From: Deltaproteobacteria bacterium CG03_land_8_20_14_0_80_45_14
GTDB taxonomy: Bacteria > Desulfobacterota > BSN033 > UBA1163
Reading direction: 5' to 3'
NCBI GenBank assembly: GCA_002780715.1
Contig: PEUO01000179.1
Span: 1 to 37,103 of the forward strand
DNA: 37,103 nucleotides
Part shown: positions 6,422 to 27,318 of the stretch, piece after piece
Numbering within the stretch: the stretch's first letter is position 1
How the letters are laid out: the number at the start of each line of letters is the position of its first letter
Position numbers and translations under genes: made by a program
The notes under the pieces: model-generated
The model's input: only the letters and a program-made list of their open reading frames with translations
What the model was told of the DNA's origin: nothing
Database searches by the model: none

Positions 6422-6490
6422 CGTCCCCCAATTATCCCCTTTTGGATTGCTTTGTCAAATCTTCTACCAGATCCCTTTCTTGACAACCTC

Positions 6491-6528
6491 TCTCCTTCCC
6501 TCCTTGCGGGGGAAGGTTGGGATGGGGG
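6491..6528. repeat. half-palindromic repeat, C-rich then G-rich
   Basis: A C-rich run (CTTCCCTCCTTGCGGGGGAAG at its core) followed by GGTTGGGATGGGGGG resembles one half of the widespread CCCTCCC...GGGAGGG palindromes, another copy of which lies at 33224-33300. It sits in the gap between priA and the truncated methyltransferase gene, upstream of its likely ATG, and probably does not code. Confidence 0.4.
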
Positions 6529-7867
6529 GTAATACTATCTTTACACTTTCCTACCAAAAAACTATAATAGGCTCAAATCCTCCCATGAAAGAAGCCCTAA
6601 AACAAATATCTAATCTTGTTGAGCGCTTCGAACGAAACATCGAGGCCTACCATAGTCCTGCCTATAACGAGACCCAACTCCGTAGAGAATTCATTGATCC
6701 CCTCTTTGAAGCATTGGGTTGGGATGTGGCCAATAAGGCAGGATATGCCGAACAATATAAGGATGTAATCCATGAGGATGCGATTAAGATTGCCGGAGCT
6801 ACGAAAGCGCCGGATTACTGCTTTCGCGTCGGTGGTGTGCGAAAATTCTTCCTCGAAACCAAGAAACCATCCGTTGATATCAAAGGCCAGACCAGCCCCG
6901 CTTACCAATTGAGGCGATATGCCTGGAGCGCCAAACTTCCCCTCTCCATTCTCACTGACTTTGAAGAGATGGCCTTTTACGATTGCCGCCTCCGACCGAA
7001 GCCAAGTGACAAACCGAGTGTTGGACGAATTCGGTTTTACACATACACCCAGTACCTCGACTCTTTTGAAGAGATTTACAATCTCCTTTCAAAGGAATCT
7101 GTTCTTAAAGGTTCATTTGATAAATTTGCAGAATCTGAGAGACAGAAGCGCGGAACAGCAGAGGTAGATGCGGAATTTTTGAAAGAGATAGAGTCATGGC
7201 GTGAGGCCTTAGCTAAAGACATCGCCTTCAGGAATCCAAACCTCTCCGTCCGTGAACTAAATTTTGCTGTTCAACTCACCATTGACCGTGTCATCTTTCT
7301 TCGGATGTGTGAGGATCGGGGGATTGAGCATTATGGTCAGATCCAAAATCTCCTAAATGGTACTAACACCTACCGGCGTCTGCGAGAAATATTCTATCAT
7401 GCCGATGATAAGTATAACTCCGGTCTTTTCGACTTCAAAACAGACCTACTCACCCCAGAACTCAAAGTAGATGATAAACCACTGAAGGATATCTTTAAGA
7501 ACTTCTATTATCCGGAATCGCCCTATGAATTCTCAGTCCTCGGCGCTGAAATTTTAGGCCATGTCTATGAACAGTTTCTGGGTAAGGTTATCCGGCTCAC
7601 CGAAGGCCATCGGGCGAAGGTCGAAGAAAAACCCGAAGTGAGAAAGGCCGGTGGCGTCTATTACACCCCAACCTATATTGTGGACTATATTGTTAAGAAT
7701 ACTGTTGGAAAAATCTGCGATGGCAAAACTCCGAGACAGATTAGTCCCCTTCACATCCTTGACCCTGCCTGTGGTTCAGGTTCCTTTCTTCTGGGTGCCT
7801 ACCAATATCTCCTGGATTATCACCTGAATTGGTATCTCATGCATCACTCAAAAAAGGGAAATGTAGC

Positions 7868-7885
7868 GCAGGGCTTTAGCCCTGC
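7868..7885. repeat. palindrome inserted in frame within the methyltransferase gene
   Basis: GCAGGGC/GCCCTGC perfect 7-bp arms around a TTTA loop, encoding AQGFSPA in the reading frame between the motif I region and the following conserved block. The encoded stretch GNVAQGFSPAPKE looks unlike its surroundings and fits a short repeat that inserted without breaking the frame. Confidence 0.55.
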
Positions 7886-8138
7886 ACCAAAGGAGATGTA
7901 TCGCGGTCGGGGCGGTCAATGGTATCTGACGATTCAAGAGAAGAAAAGAATTCTCTTGAACAATATCTACGGAGTTGACATTTACCCACAGGCCGTTGAG
8001 GTGACCAAACTGAGTTTACTCCTCAAAGTACTCGAAGGCGAAAATCAGGATACCCTTGAGAAACAGATGAAATTATTCAGAGAACGGGCCTTGCCTGATT
8101 TAGGAAGCAATATCAATGGAAATTCCCTCATCGGCCCC

Positions 8139-8178
8139 GAAAAGACATATAGGGGACGGAAAAGACATATAGGGGACG
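8139..8178. repeat. perfect 20-bp tandem duplication at the left edge of the RAYT element
   Basis: The unit GAAAAGACATATAGGGGACG occurs at 8139-8158 and again at 8159-8178. The second copy runs into the left inverted repeat of the transposase element. It marks the junction where the methyltransferase homology ends. Confidence 0.85.
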
Positions 8179-9254
8179 TTCGTGTAGAGCGTGCTTGACG
8201 TCCATAAGGATTCGGAGTAAATTAGTTCCATGCCTCGATCAGCGCGCTTAGATGCTCCGGGTGTTCTTCATCATGTCATGGGTCGAGGCATCGAGAAACG
8301 GCCCATCTTCCTGACCGATGAAGACCGAAACGATTTCCTTTCCAGGCTTGGGCTCCTCGCTGAAGAGGGATATCTTAAGGTTTACGCTTGGTCCCTTTTA
8401 CCAAATCACTTTCATCTGCTCTGCAAAACAGGAAAGGTGCCTTTAGCTCGCAGCATGAGACGCCTACTGACCGGGTATGTGGTGAAATTCAATAGGCGTC
8501 ACAATCGGTACGGCCATCTCTTCCAAAATCGGTATAAGTCCATCGTCTGTCAGGAGAATTCGTATTTGATGGAATTGGTACGATATATCCATTTGAATTT
8601 AATCAGAGCAGGGGTAGTGAAGAACTTGGGAGAGTTGAACAGATCTCAGTGGTCGGGCCATTCAGCTTTAATGGGATACCAGAAACGGGAGTGGCAGGAC
8701 ACGGCGTATGTGCTGGCGTATTTTGGGAGGGGAGTTAGAAAGAGAAGAAAATATTTGAAGTTTGTGGAAGAGGGGATTAAGAGGGGGCGGAGGCCGGAGT
8801 TAGTGGGTGGGGGATTGATACGGAGTATGGGTGGATGGTCGGACGTATTAGCATTAAGGAGGAGGGGAGAAAAGACGGCGTCAGATGAGAGGATATTGGG
8901 GGATACTGAGTTCGTAGAGAGAGTGTTAGAGGAATGGGATGAGGTTGGGAAGGTGAATCTTCGGTTAAATCGGGTTCGGATGAATCTTTCACTGTTGGCC
9001 CAGCAGGCGTGTGCGAGCTGGGGAGCGACGGTGGAAGAATTGAGGTCAGGGAGCCGAAGACAATTGATCTTGAAGGTACGGGAGGAATTCGCCCAGGTGG
9101 CAGTGAAAGGGTTAGGATATTCGGGAGCAGAGGTGGCGCGGTACCTTGGCGTGACTGGTTCTTGTGTGACGAGGATTGTCGGCGGTCGAGAGTTGCCGGA
9201 GGAGATTAGGCTAAAATATCAGATTCGCTAGGCACGTTCTGCACGGACGTCCCC
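8172..9254 (+). mobile_element. RAYT/IS200-like element bounded by imperfect inverted repeats
   Basis: The left end (8172-8194, beginning GGGGACGTTCGTG) and the right end (9232-9254, ending CGGACGTCCCC) are inverted copies matching at 20 of 23 positions. They enclose one gene for a Y1/HUH transposase. The ends have REP-like short self-complementarity, such as GGACGTCC, as expected for REP-associated tyrosine transposases, which act on hairpins rather than on classical IS termini. Both flanks are truncated genes, so the element sits at a deletion or rearrangement breakpoint. Confidence 0.75.
8230..9231 (+). CDS. REP-associated Y1 (HUH) transposase, 333 aa
   Basis: IS200/TnpA-REP type single-strand transposase. 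The N-terminal domain starts with the family hallmark PRSARLDAPGVLHHVMGRGIE. The metal-binding HUH motif is PNHFHLL with His60 and His62, and the candidate nucleophile Tyr119 lies in RYIHLNLIRAG. The C-terminal third, about residues 250-325, resembles a DnaA-like or helix-turn-helix DNA-binding domain (GYSGAEVARYLGVTGSCVTRIV). The length fits long RAYT proteins, and the frame is complete. The purine-rich middle section (about 8750-8990) differs in base use from neighbours. It is likely a domesticated or mobile repeat-processing enzyme. Confidence 0.9.
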   Translation: MPRSARLDAPGVLHHVMGRGIEKRPIFLTDEDRNDFLSRLGLLAEEGYLKVYAWSLLPNHFHLLCKTGKVPLARSMRRLLTGYVVKFNRRHNRYGHLFQNRYKSIVCQENSYLMELVRYIHLNLIRAGVVKNLGELNRSQWSGHSALMGYQKREWQDTAYVLAYFGRGVRKRRKYLKFVEEGIKRGRRPELVGGGLIRSMGGWSDVLALRRRGEKTASDERILGDTEFVERVLEEWDEVGKVNLRLNRVRMNLSLLAQQACASWGATVEELRSGSRRQLILKVREEFAQVAVKGLGYSGAEVARYLGVTGSCVTRIVGGRELPEEIRLKYQIR

Positions 9255-22112: not shown

Positions 22113-22607
22113 TCAGAGGATAAGCTCGAACCTTTGCTCAGTGACGGTTCTTCCCCATTGGTTGCCTTCACGTTCCTCGCAAAGTTTGAACCCACATTCT
22201 TCATAAAGATGGCGCGCTGGATCGAGACCCGTAAAAGTCCAAAGATATACTCGGCCAAACTTCTTCTTTCGGCAAAATTCGACGGCTTCTTCAAGCAACA
22301 TCTTTCCAACGCCATGTCCTTGGCTCTGCGGCGCCACAATGAACCATCTCAGGTGGGCCCCTTGGCTATCGTGATTGACCCCATCGATGGCAATCGAGCC
22401 TACAATTTTTTCTTCTACATTGGCTACCCAAAACCCGTCATGCTCTTCGTTAAAGCGTCGCAGAAACTCTGAAAGCTCAGTGGCCACTTTGGATTCGAAG
22501 AAAAGATGAAAACCCCAATGCTGGTAGTAATACCTCGCATGAAGTTCAGCAATTCGACCGATGGCGCCAGGAATATATCCGGACAGCTTTAAGTCATTCA
22601 TGGTCAT
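22113..22607 (-). CDS. GNAT-family N-acetyltransferase, 164 aa
   Basis: Acetyl-CoA-dependent acyltransferase. The core shows strand beta4 (HLRWFIVAPQSQGHGVGKML), where Q-x-x-G-x-G/K is the acetyl-CoA pyrophosphate loop, followed by LLEEAVEFCRKKKFGRVYLWTF and the LYEECGFKLCEE end motif. The frame is complete and of standard length. The start could be either of two near ATGs (22607 or 22601); no ribosome-binding site helps. Substrate unknown. Confidence 0.85.
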   Translation of the reverse strand: MTMNDLKLSGYIPGAIGRIAELHARYYYQHWGFHLFFESKVATELSEFLRRFNEEHDGFWVANVEEKIVGSIAIDGVNHDSQGAHLRWFIVAPQSQGHGVGKMLLEEAVEFCRKKKFGRVYLWTFTGLDPARHLYEECGFKLCEEREGNQWGRTVTEQRFELIL

Positions 22608-22670: not shown

Positions 22671-23729
22671 TTATTCTGGAAGCAGTTTCTTTCCGTTCAA
22701 CGGTTCAATTTGTACCAGCCGAATGCGGGCGTGCTGAATGGCCTCATGCAGTTTCTTCTGCAATAATTTGCGCGGCAATACCTTAGTCCAGTAAGAAGCT
22801 ACCCGAATAGCTCCTTTTTCAAGCTCCATGAGTTCAATGGTTTCACGTTTCTTTCCAGCACAAAGAATCAGGCCGATGGGTGATTCCTCTTCCGGCTGTT
22901 TTTCGTATCTCGCCAGCCAGCGCAGATAGAACTCCATCTGGCCCTTGTCGCCGGGCTGAAAGTCTCTCAACTTCAGATCTATCGCTACCAACCGACGGAG
23001 ACCTCGATGGTAGAACAGCAGGTCAAGGTAATAATCATCGTTGTCTATCTGGATACGCTTCTGTCGGGCCACAAAGGTGAAGCCGACACCCAACTCCAGA
23101 ATAAAGTTTTCCATTTCCCGCATGATCGCATCCTCTACGTCCTTTTCAATGTAGCGATCTTTTAATCCGAGAAAATCGAGGAAATACGGATCACGGAAGA
23201 CCAGGTCGGGCGTAAGTTTGTCTTCGGTGCGAAGGGTATCAAGTTCTTCACGTATCACTTTCTCCGGCTTCTTGGACAGCGCTGTGCGTTCAAACAGCAT
23301 ACCGCCGATTTTCTTTTCGAGGGTGCGAGTGCTCCACCGTTCAATACGGCACATCTCGGCATAGAAGTCACGCTTGAGGGGGTCGTCGAGGTAGATGATC
23401 TGTTTGAAATGGGTCCAACTCAATTCTCTCCGCAGTGCGGAGACAATCTCTTCGTTGGGGAAAACCTCTACAAAACGAATCATGTGCCAGAGATTCTTTT
23501 CTGAGAATCCTTGACCAAACTCAGCAGCCAATTCTCTACTCGCTGCGGAGACAATCTGCTCCCCATATTCCGCTCGCTTCTCTTTCAGGACATCCTGCCG
23601 GATGCGTTTACCCACTCGCCAGTAAAGCAGCACCAGGGCGGAGTTGACCTGGCGAGCCACGTCTTGCCGCGCCGCTGCAATTAATTCTCGGAGATCCTTT
23701 AGCAGATCTTTAGAAGTGATTGGTTTCAT
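22671..23729 (-). CDS. DUF1016/YhcG-type PD-(D/E)xK nuclease protein B, 352 aa
   Basis: An N-terminal DUF1016 domain (about 1-170; ALVLLYWRVGKRIRQDVL, FSEKNLWHMIRFVEVFP, LSWTHFKQIIYLDDP) is joined to a C-terminal nuclease-like domain with DDYYLDLLFYHRGLRRLVAI followed by DLK, where Asp and Asp-x-Lys form the likely metal site. The protein is intact. It is the last gene in a run with RadC and a second DUF1016 protein (24483), whose N-terminal sequences differ clearly. Such proteins often sit inside type I restriction loci. Biochemical role unknown; nuclease activity is inferred. Confidence 0.88.
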   Translation of the reverse strand: MKPITSKDLLKDLRELIAAARQDVARQVNSALVLLYWRVGKRIRQDVLKEKRAEYGEQIVSAASRELAAEFGQGFSEKNLWHMIRFVEVFPNEEIVSALRRELSWTHFKQIIYLDDPLKRDFYAEMCRIERWSTRTLEKKIGGMLFERTALSKKPEKVIREELDTLRTEDKLTPDLVFRDPYFLDFLGLKDRYIEKDVEDAIMREMENFILELGVGFTFVARQKRIQIDNDDYYLDLLFYHRGLRRLVAIDLKLRDFQPGDKGQMEFYLRWLARYEKQPEEESPIGLILCAGKKRETIELMELEKGAIRVASYWTKVLPRKLLQKKLHEAIQHARIRLVQIEPLNGKKLLPE

Positions 23730-23803
23730 TCTTTTCTGTTCTGTGCCTGTTACATCTTTCTTACCATAGTTTATTCAACCCCATCCTTCAATTTGATCAT
23801 CAA

Positions 23804-24475
23804 TCAAGTTGGTTGAACTAATAAACCTGCTTCCCGGAAGCTATAGTAGCCTTTTCGGGTAACGATGACATGGTCAAGAACTTGAATACCAAGAATCTTG
23901 CCTGCTTCGGTAAGCTGGCGATGGATGTTCAAGTCGAATTCACTCGGTTGAAGTTCTCCCGATGGGTGGTTATGTACAAAAAACACGGCCGCCGCACGGT
24001 CAGCAATGACATCGGCAAAGACCTCTCGGGGATGGACTGGACTTTTGTTGAGAAGACCAATGGTAACAACGCGCTTTTCGATAACCTCATTCGCCCCGTT
24101 CAGTGAAATACAAACAAAGTGTTCCTGTTGTTTTCCGGCAATGTCACTAACAGGTGGCAGGATGTCCCGTGCACATATAATCTTCACTATATCTTTAAAC
24201 AGGTGACGTCGTGCAAGTTCAAAGGCCGATAGAATCTGCGCTGCCTTGGCCAATCCCATACCGGGGACCTCAAGTAGGTGGTCCAGCGATAGTCCCTCTT
24301 TGTGCTCCCGGATCAGACTCACAACCTGCTTGGCCATTGTTCTCACATCAACGCCAGTTGTTCCCATACCGAGAATGGCTGTGACAAGTTCTTCATCCGT
24401 GAGGGCTTTCGGCCCCTTCTCCCGCAATTTCTCACGTGGCCGGGCATGTTCCGGCATGTCTTTGATAGTCTTCAT
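23804..24475 (-). CDS. radC: RadC family JAB/MPN-domain protein, 223 aa
   Basis: The N-terminal helix-hairpin-helix region (HLLEVPGMGLAKAAQILSAFEL) and the JAMM-type motif VHNHPSGELQPSEFD, with His-x-His and the distal Ser/Asp ligands, identify RadC. The role of RadC is not settled despite its name; the link to recombination repair is disputed. The ATG at 24475 (MKTIKDMPEHARP) is favoured; a longer start at 24520 would overlap the upstream gene. A GGAGGG-like signal lies inside the preceding gene's end. It lies between two DUF1016 genes, which suggests it travels with this defence-type cassette rather than being housekeeping radC. Confidence 0.88.
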   Translation of the reverse strand: MKTIKDMPEHARPREKLREKGPKALTDEELVTAILGMGTTGVDVRTMAKQVVSLIREHKEGLSLDHLLEVPGMGLAKAAQILSAFELARRHLFKDIVKIICARDILPPVSDIAGKQQEHFVCISLNGANEVIEKRVVTIGLLNKSPVHPREVFADVIADRAAAVFFVHNHPSGELQPSEFDLNIHRQLTEAGKILGIQVLDHVIVTRKGYYSFREAGLLVQPT

Positions 24476-24482
24476 AGGGCTA

Positions 24483-25559
24483 TTAGCCGTTCCCTCCGAG
24501 TTCTCTCTCAATTTGTTCAATCGTCGGCAACTTGCCTTGCAACTGTTTCGGCAGGGACTCGACCAGTCGTGTTCGCCATTCTGCCACGCCTATTGGTTTC
24601 TTCACATCGCGTAAGGCGTACTCAACGGTCAGCCTGTCCTTTTCCTTGCACAACAAAAGTCCAATGGAGGGATGATCATCCAAATGGCGCATCTGATCGT
24701 CTACGGCGGAAAGGTAGAAGTTCATTTTACCGGAGTATTCCGGTTTGAACTCGCCTGTCTTAAGATCGATAACCACAAAACAGCGTAATTTGAGATGGTA
24801 AAAGAGCAGATCAAGGTAATAATCCTGGCCGCCTACTTCAAGGTGAACCTGCCGCCCCACAAAGGCGAACCCCATACCCATTTCGAGCATGAATCTCTGG
24901 AGGTGGTCGAGCAATCCCTGTTCCAGCTCGCGCTCGCGTGCCTCGGCAGCGAGGGTGAGGAAGTCGAAGACGTATGGGTCCTTGAGGACTTGTTGAGCGA
25001 GGTCTGACTGTGGAGAAGGCAGCGCAGCGGCAAAATTGGTGATCGCCGCGCCCTCGCGTTTGTGCAGGCGGGACTCGATCTGCGCCATAAGGATAGCCCG
25101 GCTCCAACCGTATTCGAGGGTCTTCCGGGCGTACCAGACGCGAGTCACAGGGTCACGGACCTTGTGAATGAGCACAATATTATGGCCCCATGGAATTTCT
25201 GTCACAAGGTGTGACAGTTCCTCGATCTCCGAATCTGTCACAGGCTGTGACAGATTCTTGAGGTCTGCAGTCCAGGCCAGGTAGAAGGCGCGCATCCGCC
25301 ACACGTTCAGAGAGGAGAATCCCGTTATGCCGGGAAATTCCTTCTGGAGGTCTTTTGCCAGCCGCTCCACCACGGCCTTGCCCCAGCCCTCGGCGCGCTG
25401 GCGTTCGATGATGCCCTTGCCGATATCCCAATACAGAGCGATCAATTCCCTGCTTGCTGAAAGCGTCGCCCGCACCTGTGCTGCACGAACGCGCTGTTTA
25501 ATGTCCTCCAGAAATTTACCGTATCCCGCCGGAAGTAAGGATGCTCTGTTCTTTGCCAT
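24483..25559 (-). CDS. DUF1016/YhcG-type PD-(D/E)xK nuclease protein A, 358 aa
   Basis: Same two-domain layout as the other copy: an N-terminal DUF1016 domain (SRELIALYWDIGKGIIERQR, FSSLNVWRMRAFYLAW, IPWGHNIVLIHKVRDP) and a C-terminal nuclease domain (QDYYLDLLFYHLKLRCFVVI and then DLK). The ATG at 25559 (MAKNRAS) is favoured over a GTG two codons earlier. It has clearly higher GC than the surrounding core genes. The stop lies seven bases before the RadC ATG, so the two are probably cotranscribed. The two DUF1016 proteins are related but far from identical, so they are not a recent duplication. Confidence 0.88.
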   Translation of the reverse strand: MAKNRASLLPAGYGKFLEDIKQRVRAAQVRATLSASRELIALYWDIGKGIIERQRAEGWGKAVVERLAKDLQKEFPGITGFSSLNVWRMRAFYLAWTADLKNLSQPVTDSEIEELSHLVTEIPWGHNIVLIHKVRDPVTRVWYARKTLEYGWSRAILMAQIESRLHKREGAAITNFAAALPSPQSDLAQQVLKDPYVFDFLTLAAEARERELEQGLLDHLQRFMLEMGMGFAFVGRQVHLEVGGQDYYLDLLFYHLKLRCFVVIDLKTGEFKPEYSGKMNFYLSAVDDQMRHLDDHPSIGLLLCKEKDRLTVEYALRDVKKPIGVAEWRTRLVESLPKQLQGKLPTIEQIERELGGNG

Positions 25560-25561
25560 GC

Positions 25562-25606
25562 TCACTTCGCTCCCGAATTAATAATGATCGATTCAAAATT
25601 AGTCAT
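25562..25606 (-). pseudogene. 14-codon frame at the old type I restriction gene border
   Basis: An ATG at 25606 with a strong GGAGGAGG ribosome-binding site overlaps the end of the preceding remnant, as hsdM/hsdS starts often do. The frame encodes only MTNFESIIINSGAK before TGA, ending beside the DUF1016 start. It may be a gene stump or a leader for translational coupling. Confidence 0.35.
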
Positions 25607-25805
25607 TCTTTCCTCCTCCCCAAATCTCCGCCGGCTTGGCCTGAATCTTTCGTTTGTAAATTTCGATCAACTTCCGGTTCGCCTCTACCATCTCCCGTTC
25701 CGCATCAATCTCGTCCACTATCAGCCTCTGGAATTCGCCATCCCGACCTTTATAGATAATCGTTAATTCGGATTCTGGCCTTGGCTTCTTTAGCCATAAC
25801 GATCC
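25599..25805 (-). pseudogene. C-terminal scrap of a type I restriction-modification subunit
   Basis: The last open frame before the DUF1016 cassette ends EREMVEANRKLIEIYKRKIQ and then AKPAEIWGG before the stop. This resembles the C-terminus of type I HsdM/HsdS-like proteins as I know them (a coiled segment ending in a VWGE-like motif). In another frame at the upstream end, an ATG with AAGGA gives MAKEAKARIRINDYL, which resembles the N-terminus of HsdR subunits but stops at once (25750-25797). I read this as a deletion scar of an hsd operon. The similarity rests on memory and needs a search to confirm. Confidence 0.5.
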
Positions 25806-25901
25806 TTAAGGCGAATTTTTCATGCGGGATTTGGGGATATTATATGTTTGGAACGATTAAGGGTCAAGTATTTTGGACGATGATTGTTGATCATCTAATG
25901 C

Positions 25902-26606
25902 TTACAACCCCAGGAAGGCTTTTTTGACGATCTCTGACTCTAATAACTCGGTTCCCTGGCCTGAGGAGATGGTTCGACCGGTCTGCAAAATATATCCCCG
26001 GTCAGCGAGCTCCAGGGCTTCTCGAACATTCTGCTCCACCAGAAGAATGGTGCGCCCCTCCTCTTTCAGTAAAGAGATGGCTTTAAACATCTCCGTGACA
26101 AGTTTCGGCATCAATCCCAGGGAGGGTTCATCGAGCATGAGGAGTTTAGGATTCGACATCAATCCCCTGCCAATAGCCAGCATCTGCTGTTCTCCTCCGC
26201 TCAAAGTCTCTCCCTTTTGTGTGCGCCGTTCGTTCAGTTTGGGGAAAAGTTGATACACGTGGTCTAAGCGTTCTTCGATATCGTGCTTTGAGTCTAAGGT
26301 AAAGGCACCTAAAAGTAGGTTCTCCTCCACGGTTAAGGGTCCGAAGATATGTCTTGCCTCCGGTACATAGGTAATCCCGAGTCGAACAATTTTTGCCGAA
26401 TTCTTTCCGGTGATGTCTATTCCGTTAAATTCGATGTTCCCGGATACTGGGCGAAGGGCTCCAACGATTGCTTTTAGAGTGGTGCTCTTACCGGCCCCAT
26501 TGGCACCCACCATTGCAACCAGTTCCCCTTCCTTCACCTCAAACGACACCTCGTGGAGGGCGGGAATCCTCCCATAATGAACTTTAATCTGATTTACCTT
26601 TAGCAT
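25902..26606 (-). CDS. livF: branched-chain amino-acid ABC transporter ATPase LivF, 234 aa
   Basis: ABC ATPase with Walker A GANGAGKST, signature LSGGEQQMLAIGRGL, Walker B LLMLDEPS and H-loop-region VEQNVREAL. It ends ESEIVKKAFLGL, the usual LivF tail. The ATG at 26606 (MLKVNQIKVHYG) with GGGGAAAG is preferred over an earlier in-frame TTG at 26618. The gene overlaps the end of livG, the usual arrangement. It is the last gene of the liv cassette. Cytoplasmic; energises uptake with LivG. Confidence 0.95.
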   Translation of the reverse strand: MLKVNQIKVHYGRIPALHEVSFEVKEGELVAMVGANGAGKSTTLKAIVGALRPVSGNIEFNGIDITGKNSAKIVRLGITYVPEARHIFGPLTVEENLLLGAFTLDSKHDIEERLDHVYQLFPKLNERRTQKGETLSGGEQQMLAIGRGLMSNPKLLMLDEPSLGLMPKLVTEMFKAISLLKEEGRTILLVEQNVREALELADRGYILQTGRTISSGQGTELLESEIVKKAFLGL

Positions 26607-27318
26607 ATCTTTCCCCAAGGTAGGCCTCGACGACCTTTTCTTCCCTTGCCACCTCCTCCGGAGAGCCTTCGGCGATCTTTCTCCCCGCGGCCATCACCGT
26701 TACGACTTCCGAGATGGTCATGATAAATTCCATCACATGTTCTGTTAAGAAAAGGGTCAACCCCCTCTCCTCTTTTATCCTTAGCAAGGTTTGCACAATC
26801 TCTTTGATTTCCAGAGGATTGAGGCCGGCTGCAATCTCATCCAGCATTAAAAGTTTGGGTCTCGTGGCCAGGGCCCGAGCCAGTTCAATCCTTTTCTGAG
26901 TGGCAATGGGAAGCTCCGTGGGAAGGACATTTGCTTCCTCTGCGAGATTTAATAACTTCAATATCTCCTGGGCATCCCTTCTGGCCACCAGTCGATTACT
27001 GATCCGGCAGAATGCCCCAACCATTACATTCTCTTCAACGGTCAGATTTGGCATGATCTTCATACTCTGGAAAGTCCTGGCTATTCCCACTTTTGTGACA
27101 CGGTGGGCTGGCCAGCCGGTAATGTCTTTCCCTTCGAAAAAGATGTTTCCACGAGTGGGTTTATAGTAGCCGGCAATGCAATTGAACAGAGTGGTCTTAC
27201 CCGCTCCATTTGGACCGATCAGGCCAAAAATCTTTCCTCGCTCCAGCCCTAAAGAGATATCGGCGTTGGCAACCACCCCACCGAATTCCTTCACCAGATT
27301 CTTTACTTCCAGTAACAT
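26584..27318 (-). CDS. livG: branched-chain amino-acid ABC transporter ATPase LivG, 244 aa
   Basis: ABC ATPase: Walker A GPNGAGKTT, the LivG-specific FEGKDITGWPAHRVTKVGIARTFQ region (Q-loop near the end), and Walker B LLMLDEIAAGLN with Glu as catalytic base. The ABC signature is replaced by TELPIATQKRIELARAL, a departure from LSGGQ often seen in LivG relatives. The ATG at 27318 sits nine bases after the livM stop, with AAAGG before it. Partner of LivF in the cytoplasmic ATPase pair. Confidence 0.95.
   Translation of the reverse strand: MLLEVKNLVKEFGGVVANADISLGLERGKIFGLIGPNGAGKTTLFNCIAGYYKPTRGNIFFEGKDITGWPAHRVTKVGIARTFQSMKIMPNLTVEENVMVGAFCRISNRLVARRDAQEILKLLNLAEEANVLPTELPIATQKRIELARALATRPKLLMLDEIAAGLNPLEIKEIVQTLLRIKEERGLTLFLTEHVMEFIMTISEVVTVMAAGRKIAEGSPEEVAREEKVVEAYLGERYAKGKSD

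Follow-up and report, generated by a model that had tools for sequence, protein, structure and literature searches.

A DUF1016-RadC-DUF1016 gene trio that is probably the accessory residue of a type I restriction-modification operon

Introduction

Two different DUF1016 genes with a radC gene between them, on one strand of a contig of Deltaproteobacteria bacterium CG03_land_8_20_14_0_80_45_14, raise the question of whether the three proteins form a dedicated defence system or came together in some other way. An earlier note on this DNA favoured a symmetrical, undescribed unit of two nucleases with different specificity and a JAB-domain metalloprotein. Here we examine the locus within the window, that is, the whole stretch of 37,103 nucleotides that was analysed (contig PEUO01000179.1), and compare it with loci in related genomes.

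Results

Three intact genes beside the ends of a restriction operon

The genes, which we call DUF_A, RadC and DUF_B (Table 1), are three intact minus-strand open reading frames that keep their signature motifs. Both DUF1016 proteins combine DUF1016_N with a YhcG_C PD-(D/E)XK domain (Pfam, E 1e-39 to 1e-68) and are about 33% identical to each other, and thus belong to different subfamilies and do not stem from a recent duplication; the description of two distinct DUF1016 proteins flanking RadC on one strand was therefore accurate. The acidic residue and the D/E-x-K motif of the nuclease site are preserved, D250 and K267 being invariant among 27 sequences that include DUF_A and DUF_B. The AlphaFold model of DUF_A is of moderate confidence (pLDDT 68) and supports a nuclease fold for the C-terminal domain only, which resembles restriction-endonuclease-like folds such as 2vld, 5gke and 3ijm (Foldseek). 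RadC carries UPF0758_N and RadC JAB domains above curated cut-offs (Pfam, NCBIfam), the domains of the RadC/UPF0758 family, and has a solved homologue, 2qlc; its translation contains the JAMM metal-site motif H-x-H-P-S-G ... S-x-x-D, here HNHPSGELQPSEFD. A third DUF1016 copy, broken, is present in the same genome (G000:C6:58-551, L152).

The spacing is tight, as had been noted: 7 nt separate the DUF_A stop codon from the RadC ATG, with GGAGGG ahead of the RadC start inside the end of DUF_A, and 74 nt separate RadC from DUF_B. The block was also said to be GC-rich, which holds weakly at best, its 48-52% comparing with about 45-50% around it and being matched elsewhere in the window, at 15-16 kb and at 32-33 kb. 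Nor is DUF1016 undescribed in defence, since PADLOC already holds a single-gene phage-defence candidate, PDC-S02 (DUF1016/YhcG), whose models match both DUF_A (E 2e-149) and DUF_B (E 3e-128) over their full length. That class has candidate status only and consists of one protein family that does not include RadC; the window RadC had no match among the PDC-S02 models.

The restriction scraps reported next to the trio can be identified by comparison with G010, which belongs to the same family, as the start of hsdR and the tail of an HsdM-HsdS fusion gene. Window positions 25874-25735 match the G010 promoter, leader and first hsdR codons (76% DNA identity), and the window hsdR stub aligns to the start of the intact G010 hsdR, which begins MAKEARARIRINEHLQRAGW.... 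Positions 25718-25616 match the tail of G010 hsdMS (84% DNA identity), and the C-terminal ~43 residues of the frame at 25599-25805 match the C-terminus of the 850-aa G010 HsdMS protein (phmmer E 4e-15). These matches indicate that the window retains both ends of an hsdR-hsdMS core, joined directly to each other (Table 1). HsdR, HsdM and HsdS of a functional type I restriction-modification (R-M) system are otherwise absent from the locus, the remainder being the first 15-18 hsdR codons, with a nonsense codon inside, and the last ~43 hsdMS codons. Upstream of the intact hsdR of G010, as well as in G011, G001 and G014, the promoter and leader are conserved. The family genomes are draft assemblies of many contigs, and the junctions are read from the assembled sequence.

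A search for a plasmid origin of the hsdMS tail found no match. When the 700 bp preceding the collected DUF1016 and RadC genes were scanned with a profile of this tail, clear tails emerged only in the window and in G014, and the idea that many solitary DUF1016 genes follow hsdMS tails was rejected.

Table 1. Positions of the trio, the operon remnants, the flanking genes and further RadC-bearing operons of the same genome (window coordinates unless a contig is given)
Feature	Position	Strand	Remark
DUF_A	24483-25559	minus	DUF1016_N + YhcG_C PD-(D/E)XK protein (Pfam)
DUF_A alternative start	25565	minus	in-frame GTG
RadC	23804-24475	minus	RadC/UPF0758 JAB-domain protein (Pfam, NCBIfam)
DUF_B	22671-23729	minus	second DUF1016 protein, other subfamily than DUF_A (Pfam)
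Sigma-70-like promoter of the putative former hsd operon	25839..25867	minus	TTGACC-17 nt-TATAAT, 11/12 consensus matches
hsdR start remnant	25750..25797	minus	MAKEAKARIRINDYL*, with nonsense codon; aligns to G010 hsdR start
Approximate deletion junction, hsdR codon about 18 to hsdMS tail	25711..25735	minus	G010 hsdR homology stops, G010 hsdMS-tail homology starts
HsdM-HsdS fusion gene tail, last ~43 codons	about 25599..25730, upstream edge approximate	minus	phmmer and DNA identity
livF-like ABC transporter gene, outside the insertion	25902..26618	minus	closely similar, syntenic livF in 11/15 relatives examined
GNAT acetyltransferase gene, outside the insertion	22113..22607	minus	adjoins livF in G007
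Further RadC + type I operon, L244	G000:C132, 4591-13720
Further RadC + type I operon, L245	G000:C110, 3892-12033
Further RadC + type I operon, L246	G000:C144, 5664-9734

The block has a recognizable insertion site. In G007 livF and the GNAT gene lie about 170 bp apart with nothing between them, and this empty site marks the 3.3-kb block of the window as an insertion into a housekeeping neighbourhood. The window also holds a second broken restriction gene, at 6447-9231 on the plus strand: a truncated R-M gene (HSDR_N plus the start of an MmeI/N6 methylase) with an IS200-like transposase gene 31 bp further on.

Counterparts in the same family

The operon of G010 runs promoter, hsdR (HSDR_N + ResIII), hsdMS (N6_Mtase + Methylase_S), an AlbA_2 gene and RadC. 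Its RadC is the closest to that of the window that we found (86% amino acid identity; 82% DNA identity over window 24474-23803). DUF_A was not found in this operon; AlbA_2 stands in its place, which suggests that accessory genes have also been swapped. In G014 the same promoter and an ATG are fused to the hsdMS tail at a different junction, followed by DUF_B and RadC, the latter 84% identical to the window protein over 176 residues; the DUF_B copies of G011 and G014 are 87-88% identical in amino acid sequence to that of the window (87% for G014). In G011 (L222, G011:C95, 6497-13900) the promoter and hsdR start precede genes for a DUF3800 protein, a 674-aa reverse transcriptase, a DNA methylase and RhuM and a RadC fragment, possibly a reverse-transcriptase-containing defence set. 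An SDR gene adjoins the locus in all three genomes, and flavodoxin and transporter genes on the opposite side are common to G011 and G014. The shared SDR and flavodoxin flanks indicate a single site that has been occupied by a complete R-M operon in G010, by a remnant in G014 and by a replacement in G011. In G001 the promoter and hsdR start are followed by a RadC gene that is unrelated according to the tree, and by hsdM-hsdS. Lone copies of DUF_B lie next to an ACT-domain gene in G011 and G016, and in view of them DUF_B may have joined the window locus separately.

At another RadC locus, L104 (G123:C52), the initial 62 bp of the gene are present in two copies (129-190 and 275-336, offset by 146 bp), which may be a trace of recombination at the RadC start.

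DUF1016 and RadC as type I passengers

That DUF1016 and RadC genes travel in type I loci, as the earlier note stated, is borne out by the closest relatives of the window RadC and DUF_B, which are part of type I operons, either intact or reduced to remnants. All hsd genes are present in hsdM-DUF_B-hsdS-hsdR-RadC (G377:C2) and hsdM-DUF1016-hsdS-hsdR-RadC (G067:C198), and RadC immediately follows hsdR in five further loci (L119, L195, L196, L197 and L201). The RadC tree places the window in a six-member clade (support 100/100) in which three genes belong to intact type I operons, two to remnants and the last lies where its contig ends. This R-M- and defence-associated clade is separate from the remaining RadC genes of the phylum included in the comparison. 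With hsd genes called by custom profiles from two annotated plasmid operons, 12/41 close RadC loci had an hsd gene within 6 kb, as against 0/20 more distant RadC loci, the latter picked by similarity, not randomly. A scan of viral contigs for a source of RadC found no relative, and plasmid matches were all below 39% identity among the matches listed.

Three more RadC genes of the same genome are each the first gene of a type I R-M operon (Table 1), and RadC relatives in the wider clade (L190, L198 and L121) directly adjoin AbiEii-type toxin genes and an RloA-RloB pair.

Plasmid pMC64A of Aeromonas media carries the same families in the order hsdM-DUF1016-hsdS-rhuM-hsdR. In that operon and in those of G377 and G067 the DUF1016 gene sits between hsdM and hsdS, and in the latter two RadC stands at the operon end; unlike these passenger-carrying operons, the window locus lacks hsdM, hsdS and hsdR save for the hsdR start and the hsdMS tail. 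DarTG2, embedded between hsdS and hsdR of an E. coli type I R-M locus (PMC12255303), likewise shows accessory genes living within an R-M operon and using its promoter, although there the core is intact and the embedded gene pair is a different one.

Joint system, swapped cassettes or orphan genes

A dedicated system in which the three proteins act jointly would fit the tight one-strand layout, the intact motifs and the purifying selection on RadC and DUF_B described below. We nevertheless consider it very improbable. The same gene order without hsd genes was sought in 80 DUF_A loci (one scan of the genome collection), 41 close RadC loci (drawn from overlapping sets of 148 and 395 genomes within the phylum) and the DUF_B relatives examined, and a second trio did not turn up; not one of the 80 DUF_A relatives has RadC within 3 kb. 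Order and partners shift even within the family, from DUF_B-RadC in G014 to AlbA_2-RadC in G010, and because related remnants have other orders the symmetry of the trio appears to be a coincidence. The open literature searched gave no account of a DUF1016-RadC unit. The reading as an undescribed three-gene system is thus not supported. Another explanation takes the promoter with the hsdR start, and RadC at the opposite end, as homology arms between which defence genes are swapped. It would account for the four different gene sets that follow one promoter in G010, G011, G014 and the window, and for the neighbours that the first three share. However, only five loci bear on it, the RadC of G001 is unrelated, and a series of insertions and deletions at a single inherited locus would give the same picture, so that we regard exchange between conserved ends as unlikely.

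The third alternative concerns present function and is compatible with an origin from an R-M operon: the promoter-accessory layout may have been kept since DUF1016, RadC or both protect on their own. Pairwise dN/dS is 0.077 (against G010) and 0.049 (against G014) for RadC, and 0.085 (against G011) and 0.054 (against G014) for DUF_B, with dS near saturation for some pairs; DUF_A has no relative close enough for the comparison. By these values RadC and DUF_B have long been under strong purifying selection, as an average that also covers time before the core deletion. Together with the intact genes, they suggest that the trio may still matter to the cell. Both the window and G014 keep the promoter, have lost the core and retain DUF1016 and RadC genes, and solitary DUF1016 genes are common: no hsd gene was found within 3 kb of 61/80 DUF_A relatives, or of 39 of the 50 with complete flanks. 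On the other hand, the two cases come from one family, RadC is broken at the same locus in G011, and the low ratios cannot be dated to after the deletion. The open literature searched yielded no experimental description of a function of DUF1016 and RadC apart from an R-M core. A functional orphan module thus seems possible, if rather doubtful.

Discussion

The most economical reading of the locus is that its DUF1016 nucleases and RadC are optional R-M helpers now without a targeting subunit. Comparison of the assembled sequences establishes that the remnants are fused, that a related genome has an intact counterpart, that the insertion site also exists empty and that the nearest relatives of RadC and DUF_B occur in an R-M context, and on these grounds the trio very probably originated as the residue of an R-M operon. 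The ancestral operon would have had the form promoter, hsdR, hsdMS, accessory genes and RadC. An internal deletion would then have removed almost the whole of hsdR and hsdMS, which amounts to about 5 kb in the G010 counterpart, thereby joining the promoter, hsdR start and hsdMS tail directly to DUF_A and RadC, with DUF_B adjoining.

All three proteins would still be made from the old R-M promoter. Both DUF1016 proteins are predicted PD-(D/E)XK DNases that would have added to the DNA cleavage of the R-M system, and DUF1016 is listed among the PD-(D/E)XK nuclease families (PMC1913061). RadC may be an HhH-JAB accessory that processes nucleic acids, the activity proposed for its JAB domain in place of peptide processing (PMC5512222). 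Without HsdS, R-M targeting would be lost and the genes, should they act, would do so as single-gene factors independent of one another, not as a three-part machine. We offer this division of labour tentatively, and it is somewhat more likely to need revision than to stand. For the account as a whole, namely accessory genes left after deletion of the core from a type I R-M operon, our confidence is high.

The locus is ordinary in kind, an R-M operon without its core made of known protein families, and is unusually well resolved. It provides a clear case of type I loci exchanging and shedding accessory genes while the promoter is kept. It also illustrates how searches for defence systems that rely on guilt by association can be misled, as a seemingly symmetrical gene trio can arise by deletion of an R-M core. 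More speculatively, type I operons could be nurseries of autonomous DUF1016 and RadC defence operons, with recurrent and selected loss of the core and this locus as one case midway; we think this improbable. If the orphaned genes do still protect the cell, the locus would be a natural experiment in which the function of these two families stands apart from that of the R-M core.
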